DNA of 37,899 bases from Deltaproteobacteria bacterium. Lineage in GTDB: Bacteria; Desulfobacterota; GWC2-55-46. A program made the translations under genes and the position numbers. This document shows, one piece after another, positions 18,963-36,396 of the stretch. The notes beneath the pieces are model-generated. The model saw only the letters and a list, made by a program, of their open reading frames with translations. It ran no database searches and was not told the origin of the DNA. The stretch spans positions 1 to 37,899 of the forward strand of contig JACRCL010000033.1 in the NCBI GenBank assembly GCA_016219015.1, given 5' to 3'. Within the stretch, counting starts at the first letter, position 1. The number at the start of each line of letters is the position of its first letter.

Positions 18963-19718
18963 AAGTTCTATCCGCATCCCGTCATAGGCGAGTTCTATGC
19001 CTTCGGGCAGCGCAGGGTTGTCCCTCGGGTAATCGAGGCCGTGGCTGAGGTGCGTGAGGACGGTCCTCCTGGGCTTTATGGCCCGGGACGCGTCCACGGC
19101 CTGGTCGATGCTGAAGTGCGTCGGGTGGGGCTTATGGCGCAGCGCCCCGAGTATGAGCAGGTCGAGCCCTTTAAGGAGGCCGAAGGAGTCCGCCGGGATC
19201 GAACTGCAGTCGGTCAGGTATGCCATGTCCTTTATCCTGTAGCCGAATATGAGGGCCTGCCCGTGGTATACGGGCACCGGGGTTATACCTACGCCGGAGA
19301 GGTCAAAGGGCGCGTCTACTACCGTCGTGGTGAGGTTCGGCTTCCAGCCGTCGTTAAGGTCGTCCCTGAATATGTAGTCGAACATCACCCGTATGCGCTC
19401 GATAGTAAATGCGCTCCCATAGCAAGGTATCGATGTGCCCTGCGCGAGGTTGAAGGCCCGGAGGTCGTCTATGCCGTGTATATGGTCCGCGTGCGGGTGG
19501 GTGAACAATACCGCGTCTATGCGCGAGAGGTTGTTGGCGAGCGACTGGGTCCTTAAGTCCGTCGAGGTGTCTATGAGGATGTTCCTGCCCCCGGCCTCTA
19601 TGAGCAGCGACGACCTTGTGCGCTTGTTCCGCGCGTCGGTGGACGTGCATATGCCGCAGCGGCAAGCTATCACAGGCACGCCGGTGGATGTGCCGCAGCC
19701 TAAGATAGTAAGTCTCAT
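18960..19718 (-). CDS. MBL-fold metallohydrolase, PhnP-like
   Basis: This 252-aa metallo-beta-lactamase-fold protein has the metal motif HPHADH at 74-79 and further ligand segments TDCSS and LTHLSHG. The N-terminus GCGTSTGVP and the CRCGIC cluster (C19, C21, C24) are those of the PhnP branch, in which such cysteines hold a structural zinc; PhnP is a cyclic phosphodiesterase. No phosphonate genes are nearby, so a general cyclic nucleotide or phosphate-ester phosphodiesterase role is inferred. Its TAG stop codon lies at the edge of a dispersed-repeat arm. It is the last of three minus-strand genes spaced along 18960-21056. Confidence 0.92.
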   Translation of the reverse strand: MRLTILGCGTSTGVPVIACRCGICTSTDARNKRTRSSLLIEAGGRNILIDTSTDLRTQSLANNLSRIDAVLFTHPHADHIHGIDDLRAFNLAQGTSIPCYGSAFTIERIRVMFDYIFRDDLNDGWKPNLTTTVVDAPFDLSGVGITPVPVYHGQALIFGYRIKDMAYLTDCSSIPADSFGLLKGLDLLILGALRHKPHPTHFSIDQAVDASRAIKPRRTVLTHLSHGLDYPRDNPALPEGIELAYDGMRIEL

Positions 19719-22289: not shown

Positions 22290-23327
22290 ATGACCAAGGC
22301 AGTAGCGCTATTGTCCGGCGGGCTCGACTCCACGCTCGCCGTAAAGCTCATCATTGACCAGGGCATCGAGGTCCACGCCCTGAACTTCACCTCGGCCTTC
22401 TGCACCTGCAATTCCGGCGGAGCGAAGGAGGGCGGCTGCAGGAGCGAGTCGAAGAGGGTGGCCGAGGAGTTCGGCATATCCATAAAGGTCGTCGCGAAGG
22501 GCTTCGACTATATCGACATCGTCAGGAACCCGAAACACGGGTACGGCAAGGGCATGAACCCCTGCGTCGATTGCAGGGTATATATGTTCGTCCAGGCGAA
22601 AAGATACATGGAGGAGATAGGCGCCTCGTTCATAGTCACGGGCGAGGTCCTCGGGCAGAGGCCCATGAGCCAGAGGAGAGAGGTCTTCAGGATAATCGAG
22701 AAGGAGACGGGGCTCGAAGGGCTGATACTGAGGCCGCTTTCGGCAAAGCAGCTCGATCCGACCATACCGGAGAAGAACGGGCTCGTTGACCGCGAAAGGC
22801 TCCTCGACGTGCTCGGTAGGTCCAGGCGGGCGCAGATGGAGCTTGCCGAGGAGCTCGACATAAACGATTACCCCTGCCCCTCGGGCGGGTGCCTGCTGAC
22901 GGACAAGATATTCTCGAAGAAGGTAAGGGACCTCCTTTACAGCAAGGCGGACGTCACAAAAAAAGACCTCTTGCTTCTGAAAACAGGCAGGCACTTCAGG
23001 TTCAACGGCACGAAGATAATACTCGGAAGGAACGAGGCCGACAACTCGAAATTGAAGACCATGGTCCAGCCCGGTGATACGCTCTTGGAGCCGGTCGGCT
23101 TTCACGGCCCCGTGGGAGTCATTGGAGGGAACGGGGGAGCCAACGGGTCAGCCGACAATGGCGGCGGGGACGCGGTCGTCTTCGCCGGGAGGCTCATCGT
23201 GAGGTACGCGCTTGAGAAGGCCGGGGGCAGGGGGAGGCTCAAGGCGACCAACGGAGCGGGGTCCGAGGAGTTCGAGGTCGAATCCCCCGCCACGGAGTCC
23301 GAGATAGAAGAGACGAGGGTATGCTGA
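22290..23327 (+). CDS. ThiI-like PP-loop sulfur transferase with C-terminal NFACT-R-like domain
   Basis: Residues 1-190 form an adenine-nucleotide alpha-hydrolase domain with PP-loop SGGLDSTLA (9-17) and conserved cysteines (FCTC near 38-41, CVDC near 94-97, CPSGGC near 197-202), as in enzymes that adenylate tRNA for sulfur transfer. A C-terminal domain (about 205-330) with GRHFRFNGTKIILGRNEADN resembles the RNA-binding NFACT-R fold; this is a tentative match. A Gly/Asn-rich insertion (about 279-293) interrupts it. Such proteins are often annotated as tRNA 4-thiouridine synthase, but the THUMP and rhodanese domains of true ThiI are absent. The gene overlaps larE by 7 bases, so the two are cotranscribed. 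The ribosome site is AAGGGG. Confidence 0.85.
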   Translation: MTKAVALLSGGLDSTLAVKLIIDQGIEVHALNFTSAFCTCNSGGAKEGGCRSESKRVAEEFGISIKVVAKGFDYIDIVRNPKHGYGKGMNPCVDCRVYMFVQAKRYMEEIGASFIVTGEVLGQRPMSQRREVFRIIEKETGLEGLILRPLSAKQLDPTIPEKNGLVDRERLLDVLGRSRRAQMELAEELDINDYPCPSGGCLLTDKIFSKKVRDLLYSKADVTKKDLLLLKTGRHFRFNGTKIILGRNEADNSKLKTMVQPGDTLLEPVGFHGPVGVIGGNGGANGSADNGGGDAVVFAGRLIVRYALEKAGGRGRLKATNGAGSEEFEVESPATESEIEETRVC

Positions 23328-24208
23328 AAAAAGGCGCTTCCGTACCCGATTCAAGAGGCCCGGCCAATGACCTCGGCGGAGAGGCTGAAAGGGAGATGGC
23401 CCTCGGCAAATTCGAGATGTTGAAAGGGATACTGCGGGAGATGGAATCCGTGCTGGTGGCCTTCTCCGGCGGCGTAGACTCGACCTTTCTCCTGAAGGCC
23501 GCTAAAGACATCCTCGGGGGCAGCGCGGCCGCCATTACGGCCACATCCCCGACCTACCCGGAAAGGGAGCTCAAAGAGGCCCTTCGGCTTGCGGCCCTTA
23601 TCGGCGCAAGGCACGTAACTGTTGAATCGAACGAGCTTGAGATACCGAACTTTTCGGACAATACGGATAAGAGGTGCTATTACTGCAAGAGCGAGCTGTT
23701 CAGGATATCGAGGGCAGAGGCCGAAAAGCTAAATCTTGCGCACGTTGCCGACGGCTCGAACGCTGACGACCTCAAGGACTACAGGCCCGGCAGGACGGCC
23801 GCCGGCGAAAGCGGCGTAAGGAGCCCGCTTCAGGAGGCTGGGCTGACGAAAAGGGAGATAAGGATACTGAGCCGGGAGCTGGGGCTTCCCACCTGGGACA
23901 AGCCGAGCTTCGCCTGCCTGTCGTCGAGGTTCCCGTACGGCACCAGGATAACGGAAGAGAGGCTCGCGAAGGTCGGCAGGGGCGAGGAGCTTTTAAGGGG
24001 GCTGGGCTTTTCGCAGTTCAGGGTGCGCTTCCACGGAGATATCGTAAGGATAGAGGCGGAAGAGGCGGCGCTCCATCTGTTCCTCGACGACGGGGTGAGG
24101 AAAAAGGTCATAGAGGGCTTTAAGGAGATAGGTTTTACTTACGTGACTATAGACCTTCAGGGCTACAGGACCGGGAGCATGAACGAGGTGCTAAAGAAGA
24201 AAGGTTAG
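23321..24208 (+). CDS. larE: ATP-dependent sacrificial sulfur transferase LarE
   Basis: LarE is a PP-loop protein that adenylates a pyridinium carboxylate and donates sulfur from its own cysteine in making the nickel-pincer nucleotide (NPN) cofactor of lactate racemase. The PP-loop is SGGVDST (49-55), CYYCKSELF marks the family, and the sacrificial-type cysteine lies in KPSFACLSSRFPYG (C199). The ATG at 23321 overlaps the upstream stop codon; a start at Met26 is possible, as the first 25 residues look dispensable. LarB, LarC and LarA are not in the window, so the pathway must be completed elsewhere or the protein serves another thiolation. It converges on the 904-aa gene with a 7-bp gap. Confidence 0.92.
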   Translation: MLKKGASVPDSRGPANDLGGEAEREMALGKFEMLKGILREMESVLVAFSGGVDSTFLLKAAKDILGGSAAAITATSPTYPERELKEALRLAALIGARHVTVESNELEIPNFSDNTDKRCYYCKSELFRISRAEAEKLNLAHVADGSNADDLKDYRPGRTAAGESGVRSPLQEAGLTKREIRILSRELGLPTWDKPSFACLSSRFPYGTRITEERLAKVGRGEELLRGLGFSQFRVRFHGDIVRIEAEEAALHLFLDDGVRKKVIEGFKEIGFTYVTIDLQGYRTGSMNEVLKKKG

Positions 24209-24215
24209 CGGCGTC

Positions 24216-26930
24216 TCAGAAGGCCTCCGCGCCATGGGCCTTCTTCGCTTCCTCTATCCAGTTGTGTATATGGGACCTGGAGAGGGCCTTGAAGAAATCT
24301 CCTTCGGGGTTTACCATCTCGTATATAACGGTCGGCAAATTGGCCTCAAAGCCCTTGAATATCACCTCTCCGCTCCTGTAGAAGACCTCCACGCGCTCGC
24401 TTCCCTTGACCGATTCCAGCCCTAACCAGAAATCCAGCGTGGTTACCGGGAAGAAAAACGCCTCCTGGATGTACGGGTCGAGGTCCCGCACCTCGACGGT
24501 CTTCTGGAAGAAGCTCTTCGTCCCCTTCGCCTCCCTTATGTAAGCCTGCAGGGCGCCGTAGCTCAAGGCCTGCCCCTTGTTGTAGATGTCCGTGGTGAAT
24601 GAGACGAGACGGAGGTTCGAGAACGTCTCGCCCGAGGTTATCTTCTTAAGGTCGTTCAGGAACTCGTTCGCCATTATCCGGGCCATCGCCTGCGCGCTCG
24701 ACGCCTTCCTGTTCGTAAGGAGCTTCTCGAAGGCGCTGTCGAGCTCCGGGGGCATCTTTATCGAATAGAACCTGTCGATATAGACGTCGAACGGGTATTT
24801 GAGGCGCTGCCTTTTCTTGACTTTCTCGTTCTCCATCAGCATCTCGAGCTTCGCCATGACCATCGGGCTCCTGAAGGTCCCGCGCGAGGCCTCGTTTATC
24901 TTCTCGCCGATGGAGACCTTCACCGGCCCGGAGATGTCGTGCCTCGACTCTATCAGCATCACCTCGGCCTTCGCGCCGTAAGAGATGTAGAGCCCGGCCT
25001 CGAGCTCGCCCTTGATGGCGTTCTCGATCTCGTCCCTGTACGTCCTCTCAAGCCTGTGCTCCTCTTCCCCGAGGGCGACGAGCCTCGATTCCACGCCCGG
25101 CTCACTGGCGTCAAAGGCCCTGTTCAGGTCCTCCCTCTTCTGCTTCAACGCCTCCTTGCGGGCCTCGAACGACTTGTGGACGTCTTCCAAAAGCTCCTCG
25201 TCCCTCCGTGGAGGGAGTCTGCGCAGGAGCTGCTCCCTGTAGCGCCTGATGATGGCCTGGATGTCCCTTGCAAGGGAAACGAGGTAGGTGACCCCGCCTG
25301 AGAATATGGCGGCGTCCCCGGGGAGGTTCGTGAGGGTTATCCCGCGCTCGTCGGTTCCTATGCCGGTGCCGACCCCGTAGCGGCTCGCGGCCGAAAGGAT
25401 CGGCTTGTAGAAGTACTCCTTCATGAACTCCGCCATGGCTATCTCTTTTACCTTGAGGGTCTTGCGCGTGAAGTCCTTCATGTCCACGAAAAGCTGGCCC
25501 TCTTCCTCGACCTCGAGGGTCTTCAGTATCGGCCGGTCGTCCACGGAGAAGCGGTAGAGCCTCCCCCTGCCGTATTCCTCCAGGAGCGTGTTCTGGTTGA
25601 ACTCCCCGCGCCTGTCCGCGAGGTAGCCCCGCATGAGGGACTCGTATTGCTCGACGTGGTCGTCGAGCCTGCACGCGTAATAGCCCTCTATCAGCGGGAG
25701 GGCCGCCTCCAGGTCCTTCTTCGAGCTCTTTAGTATGCCCCCGAGCATGGATTTTTTGAACCCGGAGAGGAAGTCCTGGAAAGAGGATATGGCCTCGACG
25801 CGCATCGTGTCGTTTATGAACCTCTTTTTTATCTCGTCGAGCGACCTGTTAAGGTTGGCGGTAGCCCGCGCGTCGCTTAGGAAGTTCCTTATAAGCCTGT
25901 CCTCGTTATAGACCTCGAAGAGTATCGTCTGCGCCTCGGTGCCGGGCAGCTCGAACTCCATCAGGTACTTCAAGGCCTCGTCCCTGAACCTTGCTATGTC
26001 GCCCTGCTGCTTCAGGGCCTCGACGGTATCCGGGCGCCCTTTGAGCGCGTTGTTTTTCTCCATGGGCTCGAGCGCCTCGGCGCTGAATGTCATGGGGAGA
26101 TTCGAGAGCGCCTCGAAGGATTCGCTGTTGAGCCCGTAAGGGTTAAGGGATACCGAAAGGAGGTTCGAGGGTATCGAGAGGAAGGAGCGCGGGACGAGCG
26201 ACGAGGAAAGTAGCGCGTCAGTAAAGGGGTTGTAGCTCGTGGCGCCCGCGACCTTCAGCCTGTCGAGGGTGTCCCTCATGGCGGCCCTCAATGCATGGAA
26301 GACGGCCAGGCCCGTGACAAGGTCAAGCCTCTCGTAGGACAGGCCCTTTATCCTGTAGGCCTTTATCTTTTCCTTCTTTTTCCGTATGGTGTTTATGGCG
26401 GCCAAAAGCGCGAGATAAGACGTCTTCTCCTCTCCTTCGCCCCTGGCCTCCTCCCTGAGCGTCTTTTCAAAAAGCTCGGAGGCCCAACGCATGAACTTCC
26501 TGCCGTGGCCGTCGGACCCGAGCCAGCCCGCGAGGATGGCGCTGTCGATGTAAGGCGTGGACGAGAGGATGGCCGTGGCGAGTTTTTTCTCAAGGGAGTC
26601 GGCTATGAAGAGGTCTGTCCTGAAGGTCTTGTCCTTGAGAGGGGGGACGGCTATGGGCAGGACCTGGGGGGAGTCGCCCCTGCCCTCGATGCTCGCCGGC
26701 TCGTAGCGCCGCATCAGGAGCGATATGAGGGCGAGGACCGCGTTCTCAATGCAGGCCTCGTCCTCGGCGCCCATGTGATAGGGCACCTTCAGCTCGGCAA
26801 TGGATTCGCCGTGCTTGAACCTCAGCTGCCTGGGCTCCAGGGTCCAGAGCCTGCCGTTCTCGATGTCGCAGCCCTTTTTTAATAAGGCCTCGAAAAGAGA
26901 GAGCCGTTCAGCGCTATAGGATTCCGCCAT
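24216..26930 (-). CDS. Large protein with split class III nucleotidyl cyclase homology domain
   Basis: The 904-aa product has no signal peptide or membrane segment. Residues 1-470 are mostly helical and unrecognised. At 478-690 the landmarks of a class III adenylyl/guanylyl cyclase appear in order: FVDMKDFT (D483, first metal aspartate), helix MAEFMKEYFY, LPGDAAIF (D539, second metal aspartate) and SIGEKINEASR (N679 and R683, transition-state residues). A charged coiled coil of about 85 residues (about 557-643) is inserted between the second metal site and GLYISYGAKAEV. The base-selecting position seven before N679 is Val672, not the usual Asp or Cys/Ser, so activity or substrate is uncertain. 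Residues 700-904 are unrecognised. The start has no clear Shine-Dalgarno and lies close to a MITE-type element. Confidence 0.85.
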   Translation of the reverse strand: MAESYSAERLSLFEALLKKGCDIENGRLWTLEPRQLRFKHGESIAELKVPYHMGAEDEACIENAVLALISLLMRRYEPASIEGRGDSPQVLPIAVPPLKDKTFRTDLFIADSLEKKLATAILSSTPYIDSAILAGWLGSDGHGRKFMRWASELFEKTLREEARGEGEEKTSYLALLAAINTIRKKKEKIKAYRIKGLSYERLDLVTGLAVFHALRAAMRDTLDRLKVAGATSYNPFTDALLSSSLVPRSFLSIPSNLLSVSLNPYGLNSESFEALSNLPMTFSAEALEPMEKNNALKGRPDTVEALKQQGDIARFRDEALKYLMEFELPGTEAQTILFEVYNEDRLIRNFLSDARATANLNRSLDEIKKRFINDTMRVEAISSFQDFLSGFKKSMLGGILKSSKKDLEAALPLIEGYYACRLDDHVEQYESLMRGYLADRRGEFNQNTLLEEYGRGRLYRFSVDDRPILKTLEVEEEGQLFVDMKDFTRKTLKVKEIAMAEFMKEYFYKPILSAASRYGVGTGIGTDERGITLTNLPGDAAIFSGGVTYLVSLARDIQAIIRRYREQLLRRLPPRRDEELLEDVHKSFEARKEALKQKREDLNRAFDASEPGVESRLVALGEEEHRLERTYRDEIENAIKGELEAGLYISYGAKAEVMLIESRHDISGPVKVSIGEKINEASRGTFRSPMVMAKLEMLMENEKVKKRQRLKYPFDVYIDRFYSIKMPPELDSAFEKLLTNRKASSAQAMARIMANEFLNDLKKITSGETFSNLRLVSFTTDIYNKGQALSYGALQAYIREAKGTKSFFQKTVEVRDLDPYIQEAFFFPVTTLDFWLGLESVKGSERVEVFYRSGEVIFKGFEANLPTVIYEMVNPEGDFFKALSRSHIHNWIEEAKKAHGAEAF

Positions 26931-27270: not shown

Positions 27271-29148
27271 ATGCAGAGCTTACGGAAGAACGGAATAAAA
27301 GGCTTATACGCCGCCGCCCTTATAGGGGCGCTTACGCTTCTTATCTACTCGAACACCTTCCATTCCTCTTTCCAGTTCGACGATTACCTCTATGTCATAA
27401 ATTACTGCAAGGCGCACCCCCTGAAGGACTACTGGCCCCCTTACGGGACGCGGTACTTAACATACCTGTCCTTCGCGATGAACTACAGGCTCGGCGGTCT
27501 CGACCCTTTCGGCTATCACGCGGTAAATACGCTCATACACGCCATAAACGGCCTGCTCGCGTTCGGGATAATAACCGCCGCCTTCAGGACCCCCGTCATG
27601 GCCCACAACGGGAAGGAAAGGGGGCTCCCTTTCGCGGTGGCCCTTGCGGCCTCTCTCATCTTCGTGGCGCATCCCGTCCAGACAGAGGCGGTGACCTACG
27701 TCTCGCAGAGGTTCGCCTCGCTGGCGACCCTTTTCTACCTGCTGTCGCTTTTCCTTTACGCGAGGTGGAGAGACTCGGGGCAGGGCGAGAGGTACCTCTT
27801 TTATATCGGCTCAATCCTTTCGGCCTTCCTCGCGCAGAAGACAAAGGAGATAGCCTTTACGCTCCCGTTCGTAATAGCGCTCTATGAGTTCGTCTTCTTC
27901 GGAGGGGAAAGGCCGGGCAGGCGCATTTTGCGTCTTGTCCCCTTCTTCCTCGCGTTCCTTATAATACCGCTTTCGGTATTAGGCTTCCTCGGCGGAGGCG
28001 GCATAGGGGACGAGATAAGGGGCCTCCAGTTAAAGGACCTCTCGACGATTTCGCGCCACGACTACCTGTTAACCCAGTTCAGGGTCATCGTGACCTACCT
28101 GAGGCTCCTCGTGCTCCCCGTAAACCAGAATATAGAGTACGATTACCCGATGTCCACCTCTGCCCTTGACCCGCGGGTGGTCCTGTCGTTCCTCTTCCTT
28201 CTCGCCGTCTTCCTCTCAGCCGCGTACGCGCTCTATATATCGGCCGTGAGGAAGAAGCCGCTGCTGCTCCTCGCCTCGTTCGGCGTGGTCTGGTTCTTCG
28301 TGACCGTGTCCATAGAGTCCTCGATAATACCGATAAAAGATGTTATATTCGAGCACAGGCTCTACCTGCCGTCCTTTGGCGCGGCGCTGGCCTTCAGCGC
28401 GGCCGCCTTTTACGCGGCGAAGAAGATAATGCCCGCCGGGGATTTCATAAGGCCCGCCGTGATAATCATCCTCCTTACTGCCGTCCCGCTCGGGGCCGCT
28501 ACATACAGGAGGAACTCCGTCTGGGAAAACGAGGTGACGCTCTACGAGGACGCCGTTAGGAAGAGCCCGGACAAGGAGAGGGTGCGCTACAACCTCGCGT
28601 GGGCGTACCAGACTCGGGGCCAGACCGACAAGGCCGTTACGCAGTACATCGAGGACCTGAGACTCGACCCGAAAAAAGAGAAGGCCCATTACAATATCGC
28701 CGTCATCTACCAGACAGGGGGCAAAGGCGATGAGGCGCTCAGGCACTTTGCCGAGGCCGTAAAATTGAACCCCGCCAACGCCATAGCCTACTACAACATG
28801 GCGCTCATATACCAGGCGCGGGGAGACACGAAGAGCGCGATACTTTCCAACCTCCAGGCCGTAAACATAAACCCTGGCTACGAGGACGCGCACTACAACC
28901 TCGCGTGGGCGTACAATGAGGCCGGGGACGACGCTGACGCCGCCGCTCATTTTAAAGAGGTGATAAGACTCAACCCGAAAAGCGCCGACGCCTTCTACAA
29001 CCTCGGACTCATCTACAGGAAAGAGGGCAGGACGGAAGACGCGAGGGACGCTTTCACGGCCGCGCTCAGGATAAAGCCTGACTACGCGCAGGCCGGCTCT
29101 GAGCTAAAGGGGCTTACTTCGGTAAATGCCGGCCATACCAGACGCTAA
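27271..29148 (+). CDS. TMTC-like GT-C membrane protein with C-terminal TPRs (625 aa)
   Basis: The N-terminal half (about 1-420) has ten or more transmembrane segments with GT-C glycosyltransferase landmarks: an acidic FDD in the first loop (36-38) and HPVQTEAV (134-141). The RNSVWENEVTLYEDAVRKSP junction leads to about five TPR units (about 440-610). This is the layout of TMTC proteins, which in animals are O-mannosyltransferases acting on cadherins; the substrate of bacterial members is unknown, and glycosylation of exported proteins from a lipid-linked sugar is an inference. The TPRs should face the periplasm. There is no clear Shine-Dalgarno (ATACTCCTT before ATG). It heads a three-gene tandem family and overlaps the next gene by 23 bases. 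Confidence 0.88.
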   Translation: MQSLRKNGIKGLYAAALIGALTLLIYSNTFHSSFQFDDYLYVINYCKAHPLKDYWPPYGTRYLTYLSFAMNYRLGGLDPFGYHAVNTLIHAINGLLAFGIITAAFRTPVMAHNGKERGLPFAVALAASLIFVAHPVQTEAVTYVSQRFASLATLFYLLSLFLYARWRDSGQGERYLFYIGSILSAFLAQKTKEIAFTLPFVIALYEFVFFGGERPGRRILRLVPFFLAFLIIPLSVLGFLGGGGIGDEIRGLQLKDLSTISRHDYLLTQFRVIVTYLRLLVLPVNQNIEYDYPMSTSALDPRVVLSFLFLLAVFLSAAYALYISAVRKKPLLLLASFGVVWFFVTVSIESSIIPIKDVIFEHRLYLPSFGAALAFSAAAFYAAKKIMPAGDFIRPAVIIILLTAVPLGAATYRRNSVWENEVTLYEDAVRKSPDKERVRYNLAWAYQTRGQTDKAVTQYIEDLRLDPKKEKAHYNIAVIYQTGGKGDEALRHFAEAVKLNPANAIAYYNMALIYQARGDTKSAILSNLQAVNINPGYEDAHYNLAWAYNEAGDDADAAAHFKEVIRLNPKSADAFYNLGLIYRKEGRTEDARDAFTAALRIKPDYAQAGSELKGLTSVNAGHTRR

Positions 29149-30667
29149 GCTGAAATTGATATACAGGTTAATCCCGCCCGCCCTCATCGCGGCGGTCACG
29201 CTCGGCGTCTACGCGTCCACACTGCTTAACGGCTTTGTCTACGACGACAACCACATACTTCTCAGCAATATCTGGGTCACGGACTTCAGGTACGCCCCCG
29301 ACATACTCTTTTCGCCCCTGATGTCCTTTGACGCGGCCAAGACCGCCTCGAACACCTACAGGCCCCTTCTTTTCTTCCTGTTCATGGCCGAGCATTACGT
29401 CTTCGGCTTCAAGCCTTTAGGCTTCCACCTCGTAAATATCGTCCTCCACGCGGCAAACGCCGTGCTCGTCTATTATCTCGCAGGCTTTTTCCTGAAGGGC
29501 TCCTTCGGGGAAGGGGAAGGGGACAGGGGCAGGCTTACAGGCACGGTCTGCGCGGTCTTCGCCGGGCTTGTCTTCTCGCTACATACGGTAAATACCGAGG
29601 TCGTCAACTGGGTCTCGGCTCAGGCCGAGCTGACTTACACTTTCTTTACGCTCGCGTCCTTTAATATATTCATAAGGGCCGGGGCGGGCAGGCGCACTGG
29701 CCTCATGATACTCTCGGCCCTTTTCTTCCTCCTTGCGCTTTTCTGCAAGGAGACGGCCGCGGCACTCCTCCCGATAATATTCCTGTACGGGCTTACGGAG
29801 AAGGGCAGGGGGCCTGTAAAGGGCTGGAAGGGGTATCTCCTGTTCGTCCTGACGTTTTTCGCGTTCATGGCGATAAGGACGTACGCCATAGGGGGGATAA
29901 TACACCATAAGCAGGCGGACCTCGGCATATGGAGCGCCGTGGTCAACGTATTCCCGCTTGTGGCCGGGTATTTCAGCAAGCTCGTCTACCCGTCAGGCCT
30001 CAACATACTCTACGAGTTCCATCCGGCGCGCGGGCTCAGTGATATCCGCGTTATCGCTGGGATTGCGATAACGATAGCATTTATGGTCTGCGCGGTCTTT
30101 TTCAGGAGAAGAAGGCCCGTCTACACAGCCCTTGTAGTGGCGGCCGTGCCGCTCCTTCCGGTGCTATACATACCGGCTCTTTCAACGGCCGCCTCCGCTG
30201 ACAGATACCTGTACCTGCCCTCTGTGGGCTTCGCGATCCTGCTCGCGTATCTATGCGGCCAGGCGCTTAAACGGCGGGGGACCGCCGTTGCCGCCGTATT
30301 TGTCTCCGTCATTTTGCTCGCCGCTTATTCTGTAGCTTCGATCGAAAGGGGGCGCGTCTGGCGGGACGACTACTCCCTCTGGGCGGACGCGCTAAAAAAA
30401 TCCCCCAATAACCCGAACGTCCATTACAACTTCGCGTGGGCGAGCCACGGCAAGGGCGATTTCGGGAACGCGATTGCGCACTACTCCGAGACCATCAGGC
30501 TCGACAAGGGCGCGGCTGACGCGCATTATAACCTCGGCGTGATATACGCGTACCGGAAGGATACGAAAGAGGCGGCCTTCGAGTTCCGCGAGGCGCTGAA
30601 GATTAACCCCGGCTATAAAGAGGCGGCGGACAGGCTTCTGGAGATTCAATCAGGGAGCCTCCAATGA
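29126..30667 (+). CDS. TMTC-like GT-C membrane protein with C-terminal TPRs, second copy (513 aa)
   Basis: A paralogue of both its neighbours. The catalytic-type loop has YDD at 39-41 (GFVYDDNHIL), and HTVNTEVVNWVSAQAE replaces the HPV form of the family. About eleven transmembrane segments run to residue 405; RGRVWRDDYSLWADALKKSP marks the junction. Only two to three TPR units follow, fewer than in the 625-aa protein. It starts inside the 3' end of that gene in another frame and its stop overlaps the start of the third gene (ATGA), so all three are translationally coupled. The close similarity in order and motifs indicates tandem duplication. The substrate is unknown. Confidence 0.87.
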   Translation: MPAIPDAKLKLIYRLIPPALIAAVTLGVYASTLLNGFVYDDNHILLSNIWVTDFRYAPDILFSPLMSFDAAKTASNTYRPLLFFLFMAEHYVFGFKPLGFHLVNIVLHAANAVLVYYLAGFFLKGSFGEGEGDRGRLTGTVCAVFAGLVFSLHTVNTEVVNWVSAQAELTYTFFTLASFNIFIRAGAGRRTGLMILSALFFLLALFCKETAAALLPIIFLYGLTEKGRGPVKGWKGYLLFVLTFFAFMAIRTYAIGGIIHHKQADLGIWSAVVNVFPLVAGYFSKLVYPSGLNILYEFHPARGLSDIRVIAGIAITIAFMVCAVFFRRRRPVYTALVVAAVPLLPVLYIPALSTAASADRYLYLPSVGFAILLAYLCGQALKRRGTAVAAVFVSVILLAAYSVASIERGRVWRDDYSLWADALKKSPNNPNVHYNFAWASHGKGDFGNAIAHYSETIRLDKGAADAHYNLGVIYAYRKDTKEAAFEFREALKINPGYKEAADRLLEIQSGSLQ

Positions 30668-32379
30668 AAAAAACAGCCGATAAGCAGACAAATAAAAAGA
30701 GCTTCGACAGGGCAAAGGCGGCCTCGGTCCTTATCATTATCGTTGCCACGTTCGCTGTCTACGCGGCGTCTGTCGGGAACGGGTTCGTCTACGACGACCA
30801 CGAGCTCATTCTAAATAACAGGCTTATAACGGACTTCAGGTATCTGCCGCAGGCGTTTACCACGTCCCTCTGGTCGTTCAAGGGCATGGTGTCGAACACG
30901 TACAGGCCGGTGTTGCACCTGATTTTTTTGATCGAACGCGCCGCCTTCGGGGTAAGCCCGTGGGGCTACCATCTGACGGCAGTGGCGCTGCACGCGGCAA
31001 ATGCCGTAACCGTCTTCCTTATCGCGTCCCTTTTCGCCTTTAACGGCGCCGGGCAGGCGGGCCAGGCGGGCATCGACGGGTTGAGCAAAGGGGCGCGGGT
31101 ATTGCGTTTCCCCGTAAAGAGGGGCTTTCCCGGGTATTTCCCGCCGCTCCTGGCCGGTCTTGTATTCGCCCTCCATCCGGTCAATTCCGAGGTCGTATCA
31201 TGGGTCTCGGCCATAACAGAGCTTACGTATACACTCTTCTTCCTCCTTTCGCTCTACTTTTTCATGCGGTTCAGGGCAGGGCAGGGGAGGGCCTTTTACG
31301 CGCTCTCAATCCTTTGTTTTCCCGTGGCGCTCCTGAGCAAGGAAACGGCCATAATGCTCCCGGCGCTGATAGCCGCCTACGACCTTTCCGGAGAGGGCGT
31401 CTCTTTTTTAAGACGCTGGAAGGGCTACATCCTCTATATCCTCCTGGCCGTCCTGTACATGGCCCTGAGGACTATCTCCGTGGGCGGCCTTCTCCATCAC
31501 AGGCAGATAAGCCTTTCAGTCCGCGAGCTTGCCATAAACATCTTCCCGCTCATATTCAAATACGCGTGGAAGCTCGTCCTGCCCATAGGCCTCAATGCGA
31601 TATATGTCATGGAATATACGGCGTCCCTCGCTGAGCCGAAGGCCATAGCCGGGGTGCTGGCCGCCGTAGTTTTTATTTTAGCCCTGGCGCTGAGCCTGAG
31701 GAAAAGGCAGGCGTTCATCGGGCTCCTCCTTATAGCGCTGCCTCTGCTGCCGGTCCTCTACATACCGGCGCTTTCTAACGCCGCCTTCGCCGACCGCTAC
31801 CTCTACCTCCCTTCGGCGGGCTTCGCGATGTTGATATCCTTCGCGATAGGGCCTATTTTCGCCTCATCAAAAGCGCGTAAGGCCCGGGCCGTCATAATGC
31901 CGTTGTTTGCGGCTGTCCTTGTCCTCTATTCGGCAGGCTCTTTCAAAAGGAGCGCAGTCTGGAAGGACGACCTCACCCTCTGGCAGGATACCATCGTAAA
32001 GTCCCCGTCGAGCAAATACGCCCATTACAACCTCGCGCTCGCTTACAGGGAAAAGGGAGAGATAGATAAGGCCATAGCGGATTTCGAGGAGGCGATAAGG
32101 CTCGACCCGGCCTACGAGGACGCCCATTACAACCTCGCGTGGGTATACGACTACGCGGGCGACCATGACAGGGCGATAGCGCACTACAGGGATACCATAA
32201 GGCTCAACCCAGCTTCTGCAGACGCGTATTTCAACATAGGCCTCATATACAGGAAAGAGGGGCTTTTAAGCGAGTCTGCCGGGGAGTTCAGGAACGCGCT
32301 CAGGATAAGGCCCGGGTACGCTGAGGCTGAAAAAGAGCTGGCAGGGGTCATGGGCCGGGGGGGAAGGGAAACTAACTGA
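30664..32379 (+). CDS. TMTC-like GT-C membrane protein with C-terminal TPRs, third copy (571 aa)
   Basis: The third paralogue has a basic N-terminus with KKTADKQTNKK, then YDD at 43-45 (GFVYDDHELIL) and HPVNSEVVSWVSAITE. Its membrane region extends to about residue 425. The junction RSAVWKDDLTLWQDTIVKSP leads to about three and a half TPR units (about 450-560). The last two TPRs match the end of the 625-aa protein closely (AHYNLAWVYD, IRLNPASADAYFNIGLIYRK), pointing to duplication or gene conversion. It lacks a strong ribosome site but overlaps the second copy by 4 bases. It ends the plus-strand operon; a gap of about 180 bp separates it from the HEAT-like gene. Confidence 0.87.
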   Translation: MKKTADKQTNKKSFDRAKAASVLIIIVATFAVYAASVGNGFVYDDHELILNNRLITDFRYLPQAFTTSLWSFKGMVSNTYRPVLHLIFLIERAAFGVSPWGYHLTAVALHAANAVTVFLIASLFAFNGAGQAGQAGIDGLSKGARVLRFPVKRGFPGYFPPLLAGLVFALHPVNSEVVSWVSAITELTYTLFFLLSLYFFMRFRAGQGRAFYALSILCFPVALLSKETAIMLPALIAAYDLSGEGVSFLRRWKGYILYILLAVLYMALRTISVGGLLHHRQISLSVRELAINIFPLIFKYAWKLVLPIGLNAIYVMEYTASLAEPKAIAGVLAAVVFILALALSLRKRQAFIGLLLIALPLLPVLYIPALSNAAFADRYLYLPSAGFAMLISFAIGPIFASSKARKARAVIMPLFAAVLVLYSAGSFKRSAVWKDDLTLWQDTIVKSPSSKYAHYNLALAYREKGEIDKAIADFEEAIRLDPAYEDAHYNLAWVYDYAGDHDRAIAHYRDTIRLNPASADAYFNIGLIYRKEGLLSESAGEFRNALRIRPGYAEAEKELAGVMGRGGRETN

Positions 32380-34324: not shown

Positions 34325-36268
34325 TCACCACGCCCGGAAAAACGCCCTCGTGGCCCTGAATATTATGGAGTTTTCCACGAGGTCCCTGTCCGGCTCCTTC
34401 GTGACGGTGTACTTGTGCTCTGCCGAGAGCGACCAGGCCCTCAGCTGGTAGAGCAGCTGGTTCTGCAGGAACGTGGTGTCGGTGAAGGTGGTCTTTGTAG
34501 ACCTCTCGGTCCTCTGAAGCAGCGCCTGCCAGCTCAGGAAACGCGTGAACCTCTTTAAGTAGTTGGCGTTATACGTCGTGTTCGTGACAGTTTCCGTCCC
34601 TCCGGTAAAGGACGAGTCGGTCAGGCTGTAACTGAAGCCGAGCGACATTGTCCCGCGCAATAACTGCCTTGTATGGGTTATGCCGACTGATTCGGTTGAG
34701 GACTGGGAGAAGCCGGATATCTCGGTAAAGCTGTGCACGCGCTCAGCCGATAAGTCGACCCTGGTGTTCTTAAGGTACGTGGACGCGGCTAAAAACTGAA
34801 GGCTTTCCGTCCTCTGGTCGTACAGCGCCACGTAGGAGTCCTGGGAGAACTTGTGATATCTGCCTGTCATGTTGACGTACTTCTTCCACTGCCTGTTGAA
34901 CGCTTCCAGGTTGTAGGACTTCGTAATGCTGCTTACTTTGCCCGAGAAGCTCTGCGTGTCGCTGTACGCAAGGTCGGTGTTGAAGCCCACGTACGGGTTT
35001 ACGTTTATGTCCTTGAGCGACAGGGTAGCCTGGTAGTCCAGGCCTTTGCCGCCCTGGTCCCCGTTCTTGTCGTGTATCTTCTCTTCGACGTAGCCCATCC
35101 CGTAGCTTGCGAACAGGCGCGCCCAGTTGAACTGCCTCGAGTATCGGATGCTGGTTATCTCCCTGAAGGTCTTCCTGTCGCTCAAGCTCGGCAGGGCCGA
35201 GGCGCTGCTTGTGTTGGTCTTCAACTGGTAGTAGCTGACCGACTCCGCAAGAGAGAGTGTTTTTGTGAGCGAATAGTTAAGGCTTAGGTTGGCGCTCTCC
35301 CCGTCGGACTTCGACGTGGACGTCGGGGTGTCGTTCTCGATGCTGTTGATGGACAGGCCGAGGGTGGAGGTAAGCCTGTCGCTCAGCCTGTAATTCATGT
35401 CGCCCGAGTATGTGCCGCCTTTCGACTTTTCTCCGTCGGTATTGGTGCTGTACATGGTATAGTTGTGCGTCTGGCTGAAGTCGATGCTGGGCCTGGAGGA
35501 AAGCGAAAGGCTCAAGCCCTCGAGCTTCGTCCTTGGGCCGTCCTCGGTTTTGGCATTGCTCTGCGTGGTGCCCAGCGAGAACTGGGTGCTCTTGGATATG
35601 TTGGTCACGTTGTTGAAGCTGAGCACGTCCTGTTTGGTGCCGGGTCCGGCGGTCGAGTCCGATACCGTGTGGGAGTAGTTGGCCTCGTTTATGGTCGGGC
35701 CTATGTTCTTCTTGGCTTGCACGCGGTAGGTGTCTATGTGCGTCTTGACGCCGCCTGACTTGTTCTCGTCCCTCTGGGCGAACAGCGCTATATAGGGCAG
35801 GGTCCTGAACTTCAGGAACCAGTTCGCCCCGTAGCTGTTGGTCCTCGAGCCCGTTTTGGAGGTGTCGCTCTGGGAACTGGTGTCCAGCCTGCTTCCGAAC
35901 AGCGTAAGCGGGATCGAGGATTTCGGCAACACCGTGGTGCGGAGGTAATAAAAAAGGTTCTTCGAGTCTATGTTCGAATTCTCGGTAGAGTAGGTGTTTT
36001 TAGTCCATTTTATGCCGGTATCGTATATGAGGAGCCTTCTTGAGAATATGTTGCCTTTGAGGTCAAGGGAGTAGGTCTGCTGGAAACGGCTGGAGTCCTG
36101 TTTGGACTTGTTCTGCTCTATGGAATGTTTTTCGAACTCGAAATAAACAACCCCGACAAGGCTTTTATACTCGTACGGGTCCACTTCGAAAGACATGGCC
36201 CGGGATGGAATAAGCCACGCTAACCCGGAAAGGGCCAATGCCCACCATATCCTTTTGCTGCGGAACAT
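34325..36268 (-). CDS. Predicted outer-membrane beta-barrel protein (647 aa)
   Basis: A signal peptide (KRIWWALALSGLAWLIPSRA, about residues 5-24) leads to a mature part rich in Ser, Thr, Asn and aromatic residues, with many alternating amphipathic strands such as SLSLSSRPSIDFSQTHNYTM and LSLNYSLTKTLSLAESVSYY. The chain ends in an aromatic residue (FFRAW), as outer-membrane barrel proteins commonly do for Bam recognition. It is probably a barrel of 20 or more strands. I do not recognise the family; PEP-CTERM-system outer-membrane proteins are one possible relation. I chose the ATG at 36268 (AAGGA 11 nt upstream) over a TTG at 36289. It precedes the decapitated TPR gene, with which it probably forms an operon. 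Confidence 0.83.
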   Translation of the reverse strand: MFRSKRIWWALALSGLAWLIPSRAMSFEVDPYEYKSLVGVVYFEFEKHSIEQNKSKQDSSRFQQTYSLDLKGNIFSRRLLIYDTGIKWTKNTYSTENSNIDSKNLFYYLRTTVLPKSSIPLTLFGSRLDTSSQSDTSKTGSRTNSYGANWFLKFRTLPYIALFAQRDENKSGGVKTHIDTYRVQAKKNIGPTINEANYSHTVSDSTAGPGTKQDVLSFNNVTNISKSTQFSLGTTQSNAKTEDGPRTKLEGLSLSLSSRPSIDFSQTHNYTMYSTNTDGEKSKGGTYSGDMNYRLSDRLTSTLGLSINSIENDTPTSTSKSDGESANLSLNYSLTKTLSLAESVSYYQLKTNTSSASALPSLSDRKTFREITSIRYSRQFNWARLFASYGMGYVEEKIHDKNGDQGGKGLDYQATLSLKDINVNPYVGFNTDLAYSDTQSFSGKVSSITKSYNLEAFNRQWKKYVNMTGRYHKFSQDSYVALYDQRTESLQFLAASTYLKNTRVDLSAERVHSFTEISGFSQSSTESVGITHTRQLLRGTMSLGFSYSLTDSSFTGGTETVTNTTYNANYLKRFTRFLSWQALLQRTERSTKTTFTDTTFLQNQLLYQLRAWSLSAEHKYTVTKEPDRDLVENSIIFRATRAFFRAW

Positions 36269-36396
36269 CAAGAGGCCGGTCCTTTCCAAGGCAAAAGCTG
36301 AAAACCCAAAAGAGCAAAGCGGAAAACCGGCCCGGGCCGGACTCGATGCCGTCCGGAGCCGGGCGGAAAAGAATCCGTCCGGGTGAGGACCCTATG

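Follow-up and report, generated by a model that had tools for sequence, protein, structure and literature searches.

A reverse-strand gene in the 37,899-nucleotide stretch of Deltaproteobacteria bacterium DNA analysed here (contig JACRCL010000033.1, hereafter the window) encodes a 904-amino-acid protein that holds, in its predicted structure, a complete class III nucleotidyl cyclase fold interrupted by two insertions (Table 1). Judging from sequence comparisons, the gene represents a conserved bacterial protein family that escaped recognition in the family databases searched. We favour, as reasonably likely, the interpretation that this protein is a soluble, catalytically competent class III-type cyclase, probably a homodimer, whose base pocket is a noncanonical Asn/Val pair and which is controlled through its N-terminal domain and perhaps through a helical arm of variable length.

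Table 1. Features of the cyclase-like gene and of its convergent neighbour (window positions; residues of the 904-residue protein)
Feature	Positions	Strand	Basis
Whole gene, predicted soluble protein, usually a single-gene unit	24216..26930	-	Open reading frame 26930..24216, ATG to stop, 904 aa
All-helical N-terminal domain (residues 1-452) without an assignable family	25575..26930	-	AlphaFold on the domain alone: pLDDT 89.2, pTM 0.90
Cyclase homology domain (class III, nucleotidyl) with two insertions, residues 473-877	24300..25514	-	VIA alignment to 3r5g
Metal-site motif 1, FVDMKDFT, residues 481-488	25467..25490	-	D483 51/51, F481 50/51, F487 50/51
Residues 533-545, beta-hairpin carrying base-selecting N535 and the second metal site (D539)	25296..25334	-	G538, D539, G545 51/51
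Helical arm, ~residues 563-640, inserted ahead of the strand that follows helix 547-571	25011..25244	-	Model helices 577-607, 613-640
Residues 672-687: second base-selecting position V672, transition-state pair N679/R683	24870..24917	-	V672, N679 51/51; R683 50/51
Second insertion, ~residues 707-840 (approximate; includes some canonical strands)	24411..24812	-	111-138 aa in homologues, near constant
Final beta-hairpin, residues 841-877	24300..24410	-	hhalign of C-terminal profile vs cyclases: 34% identity, 29 columns
C-terminal helix, residues 878-904	24219..24299	-	AlphaFold model
Neighbouring larE (sacrificial sulfur transferase), convergent and in conserved synteny, outside any shared operon	23321..24208	+	TIGR00268, 329 bits (cut-off 150); synteny

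In class III cyclases, two aspartates bind the metal ions, an Asn and an Arg stabilise the transition state, and Lys/Asp-Thr or Glu/Cys-like pairs select the base (PMC4215837 and general knowledge). The original prediction, made from the DNA alone, had read three such motifs in the protein, namely FVDMKDFT (D483), LPGDAAIF (D539) and SIGEKINEASR (N679, R683), together with a valine (V672) seven residues before N679, and all were found at these positions in the translated open reading frame. Both metal aspartates and the transition-state pair are thus present. Lack of conservation of these four residues had been set beforehand as an argument against the assignment; in an alignment of 51 homologues, down to 27% identity (A2), we found instead that D483, D539 and N679 are invariant and that R683 is kept in 50 of the 51. 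The invariant residues include D483, G538, D539, G545, V672, N679, E680, A681, G684 and R687, of which E680 and R687 are specific to this family, as well as Y459 and D464. The cyclase core is the best conserved part of the protein, the fraction of the commonest residue being 0.67-0.68, versus 0.46 in the N-terminal domain and 0.49 in the arm.

Further support comes from comparison of the family profile with 30 genuine PF00211 domains taken from the same relatives. The alignment obtained a weak score of 27.9 (E 0.0012, probability 20%), the maximum among 60 column-shuffled controls being 22.4 and the reversed profile reaching 9.8; joining the core segments gave a score no higher than the core alone. 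The three motifs co-aligned in order, FVDMKDFT with FSDIRGFT, PGDA with IGDA and IGEKINEASR with IGDTVNLASR. Since the key residues of the motifs are invariant, or nearly so (R683), in the 51 homologues and the score exceeds those of the shuffled profiles, the comparison argues that the motif match is not due to chance. In the same alignment N535 falls on the base-selecting Lys, and V672 on the Asp/Thr position, of the relatives' genuine cyclases; N535 is an Asn in 46 homologues and a Ser in five.

Absence of a cyclase fold from an AlphaFold model had also been proposed as a refutation, and the fold is there. The protein was modelled with AlphaFold2 on the A2 alignment (predicted local distance difference test, pLDDT, 84.7; predicted template modelling score, pTM, 0.73), and the VIA alignment with CyaB of Pseudomonas aeruginosa (3r5g) superimposed 179 of 195 residues over model residues 473..877 (Z 16.3, root-mean-square deviation 2.8). 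The top 50 VIA matches listed are all adenylyl or guanylyl cyclases, and cyclases also rank first in a whole-chain Foldseek search, where the modest E of 2.7e-3 might be expected because the domain is split. The model revises the original domain boundaries: the cyclase domain, said to end near residue 700, closes only at about residue 877, after the second insertion, so that the roughly 200 C-terminal residues described as being of unknown type are largely the remainder of this domain. It therefore measures ~405 residues here, compared with ~195 in ordinary members. In its final hairpin, K859 is aligned with the Lys of the canonical VKGK motif and is basic in 46/51 homologues (39 Lys, seven Arg), which, with the retention of the metal aspartates and of the Asn/Arg pair down to 27% identity, speaks for an active enzyme.

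As a working mechanism, a putative homodimer would form by head-to-tail association of two chains. D483 and D539 of one chain would hold two metal ions, N679, R683 and probably K859 of the partner would stabilise the transition state, and a nucleoside triphosphate would be cyclised to the 3',5'-cyclic nucleotide. The noncanonical Asn535/Val672 pair would read the base, sensing would likely fall to the N-terminal helical domain, and the arm may serve as a lever or as a contact with the dimer mate or another partner.

The original prediction had left the choice between an atypical cyclase and a pseudo-cyclase. Degenerate cyclase domains usually lose some catalytic residues. Because the metal and transition-state residues are here fully retained, the sequence comparison favours the atypical active cyclase over a protein that would bind nucleotide or metal and work with its helical N-terminal domain as a sensor or switch, without catalysis. 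We judge this second option rather unlikely, although the noncanonical base positions, with a strictly fixed and non-hydrogen-bonding V672, the large insertions, the family-specific E680 and R687 and the low sequence similarity to active cyclases would all suit it. Invariant residues near the active site (E680, G684 and R687, as well as Y459 and D464) may hint at additional chemistry or at another substrate, for example a nucleotidyl reaction in which pyrophosphate is released and the nucleotidyl group is transferred to another acceptor by the same fold; the conserved cyclase Asn/Arg pair and the structural matches, which are cyclases, make this improbable.

If the protein is an active cyclase, as we favour, its substrate is left open by the noncanonical and fixed Asn535/Val672 pair, and the product may thus be other than cyclic adenosine monophosphate (cAMP). 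A narrower form of this interpretation, possible though not the likely case, is that of an adenylyl cyclase with a diverged sequence that still makes cAMP. Base-selecting residues are known to vary in class III cyclases (PMC4215837, PMC4886424), the canonical pair being typical rather than strictly defining, and the genome encodes domains that bind cyclic nucleoside monophosphates (cNMPs). However, this deep family keeps the Asn/Val pair almost without exception, and most of the same genomes also carry genuine PF00211 cyclases with Lys/Thr-type residues. In the host genome itself we found one ordinary PF00211 cyclase and five matches to the cNMP-binding family PF00027, so that cyclic-nucleotide signalling probably exists in this bacterium; nothing in these sequence matches ties it to the 904-residue protein. 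A bolder proposal, which we hold to be unlikely, is that of an unrecognised class III family whose Asn/Val pocket yields a cyclic mononucleotide that is neither cAMP nor cyclic guanosine monophosphate, as an arm-length-tuned and near-universal housekeeping signal in an uncultured class.

Several observations weigh against our favoured interpretation. The canonical base pair (Lys/Asp-Thr or Glu/Cys) is absent, its place being taken by N535/V672, and the hhalign probability of similarity to cyclases is just 5-20%. PF00211 matches neither the window protein nor 10 distant members, and is missing from the 25 families listed for the 37 members of set A1. Nor did any effector gene consistently adjoin the cyclase-like gene among the compared neighbourhoods.

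Searched as a single sequence, the window protein returned nothing significant in Pfam, NCBIfam or the PDB, and its layout is undescribed in the open-access literature searched. PADLOC likewise supplied no known family. A match to SopA (E 0.01 over 24 residues) was below the cut-off and was taken as chance. With the class III cyclases (PF00211; CyaB 3r5g, CyaC 1wc0, Cya2 2w01) the protein has in common the complete fold, the metal Asp pair, the Asn/Arg pair, the order of the motifs and the terminal beta-hairpin with its Lys; it differs in its Asn/Val base sites, in escaping the PF00211 model, in its unrelated helical N-terminal domain, and in the arm and second insertion that double the length of the domain. 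DUF2652 (PF10851), a predicted class III cyclase-like family of single-domain proteins averaging ~250 amino acids (PMC4886424), is likewise divergent and recognised only by sensitive comparison. Its mycobacterial members are without the Asn (PMC4886424), which is invariant in the family described here; PF10851 did not match the window protein and was met in only 1/37 A1 members, with a best E of 0.013, below the gathering cut-off. Pycsar PycC (PMC11224242) similarly has the class III motifs while its base-reading residues are noncanonical, but is a sporadic defence gene, whereas the window gene is a core chromosomal gene of most of the class with no effector seen among the neighbours identified; no PycC model was among the PADLOC matches of the 51 members (E <= 1).

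The arm had been predicted as a coiled coil inserted after the second metal site. A helical insertion is indeed modelled there, two helices (577-607 and 613-640) extending helix 547-571, but the evidence falls short of a true coiled coil: the hydrophobic periodicity of the arm has a weak peak near 3.6, which together with the two model helices points to a helical hairpin. Measured as the number of residues between alignment positions 561 and 641, the arm is 79-82 residues long in most of the class, 21-29 in genomes G048, G096, G083 and G120, 48, 60 or 71-72 in others, and 181-182 in families f23 and f26. In a tree built without the insertion, lengths track clades, with changes within clades: G048 (arm 25) is sister to G058 (arm 79), and the groups with 181-182 residues are parted by the short-armed f34. 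Since lengths differ within clades and f34 separates the long-armed groups, arm length seems, on this tree, to have been altered repeatedly against the background of a constant catalytic set.

The N-terminal ~470 residues had been called of unknown type, and they keep this description: residues 1-452 are modelled with confidence as one all-helical domain, and no convincing fold match emerged. The best Foldseek hit was a terpene synthase with E 0.14 (none at E <= 0.001), the best VIA match had Z 7.8 over 86 residues, and BFVD gave nothing at E <= 0.001. These matches are uninformative, and a new fold is not thereby demonstrated for the predicted domain. As the highest 19-residue Kyte-Doolittle mean is 1.19, the sequence does not indicate a membrane segment and the protein is predicted to be soluble. 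A plus-strand gene in this interval was discarded, stops interrupting the frame read.

Homology searches located relatives in 50/59 close genomes and in 53/63 genomes of the class, and a profile search of a sample of 395 genomes from the phylum added 14 from other classes, with one copy per genome, fragmented copies aside. Named records among them are metagenome-assembled genomes labelled Deltaproteobacteria or Proteobacteria. The homologue of genome G040 (L055:6491-9222) is split into two reading frames of 471 and 435 amino acids, and one TGA is reported within the match in G037 (L046); either may reflect a sequencing error or a real lesion. No plasmid or phage match was found for the gene, which together with stable synteny speaks against a mobile or phage origin. 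If our interpretation is correct, a single-copy nucleotide-signalling enzyme present in most of a bacterial class has been missed by the annotation libraries searched. Because the Asn/Val base pocket is fixed, the question of its product can be tested directly, and the natural arm lengths (21-29, ~80 and ~180 residues) offer a ready series for studying the control of class III cyclases.

The usual setting is that of a lone gene flanked by convergent larE and ThiI-like genes and, at its opposite end, by divergent TPR or HEAT genes; genomes of other families have it behind purS-purQ, MTAP or a different core gene. An operon partner was sought as a clue to function and rejected: across families the neighbours include larE, larB, purS/purQ, MTAP, an A-adding tRNA nucleotidyltransferase and others, and because they differ and are mostly convergent or divergent, no functional inference was drawn from them. 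Part of the neighbours are annotated, and those identified are housekeeping genes; the setting reads as that of a core chromosomal gene, not of a defence or mobile system. In most of the class, as well as in G096 and G144, larE adjoins the cyclase-like gene, while larB (L155:5439-6257) adjoins it in other f23 genomes, larE and larB being nickel-pincer cofactor genes in different arrangements. Further along the window, positions 18963-19718 (-) encode a metallohydrolase with the metallo-beta-lactamase (MBL) fold, assigned by NF038231 (372 bits, cut-off 360) to the 'GPMC system', for which no paper was found; this gene is kept near the cyclase-like gene in 21 of the compared neighbourhoods. A 654-amino-acid protein encoded at 34328-36289 (-), with no Pfam or NCBIfam match, is kept with TPR and HEAT genes in 13 of them. 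Three adjacent and slightly overlapping genes at 27271-32379 (+) encode large TPR proteins of 625, 513 and 571 amino acids, whose number varies between relatives.
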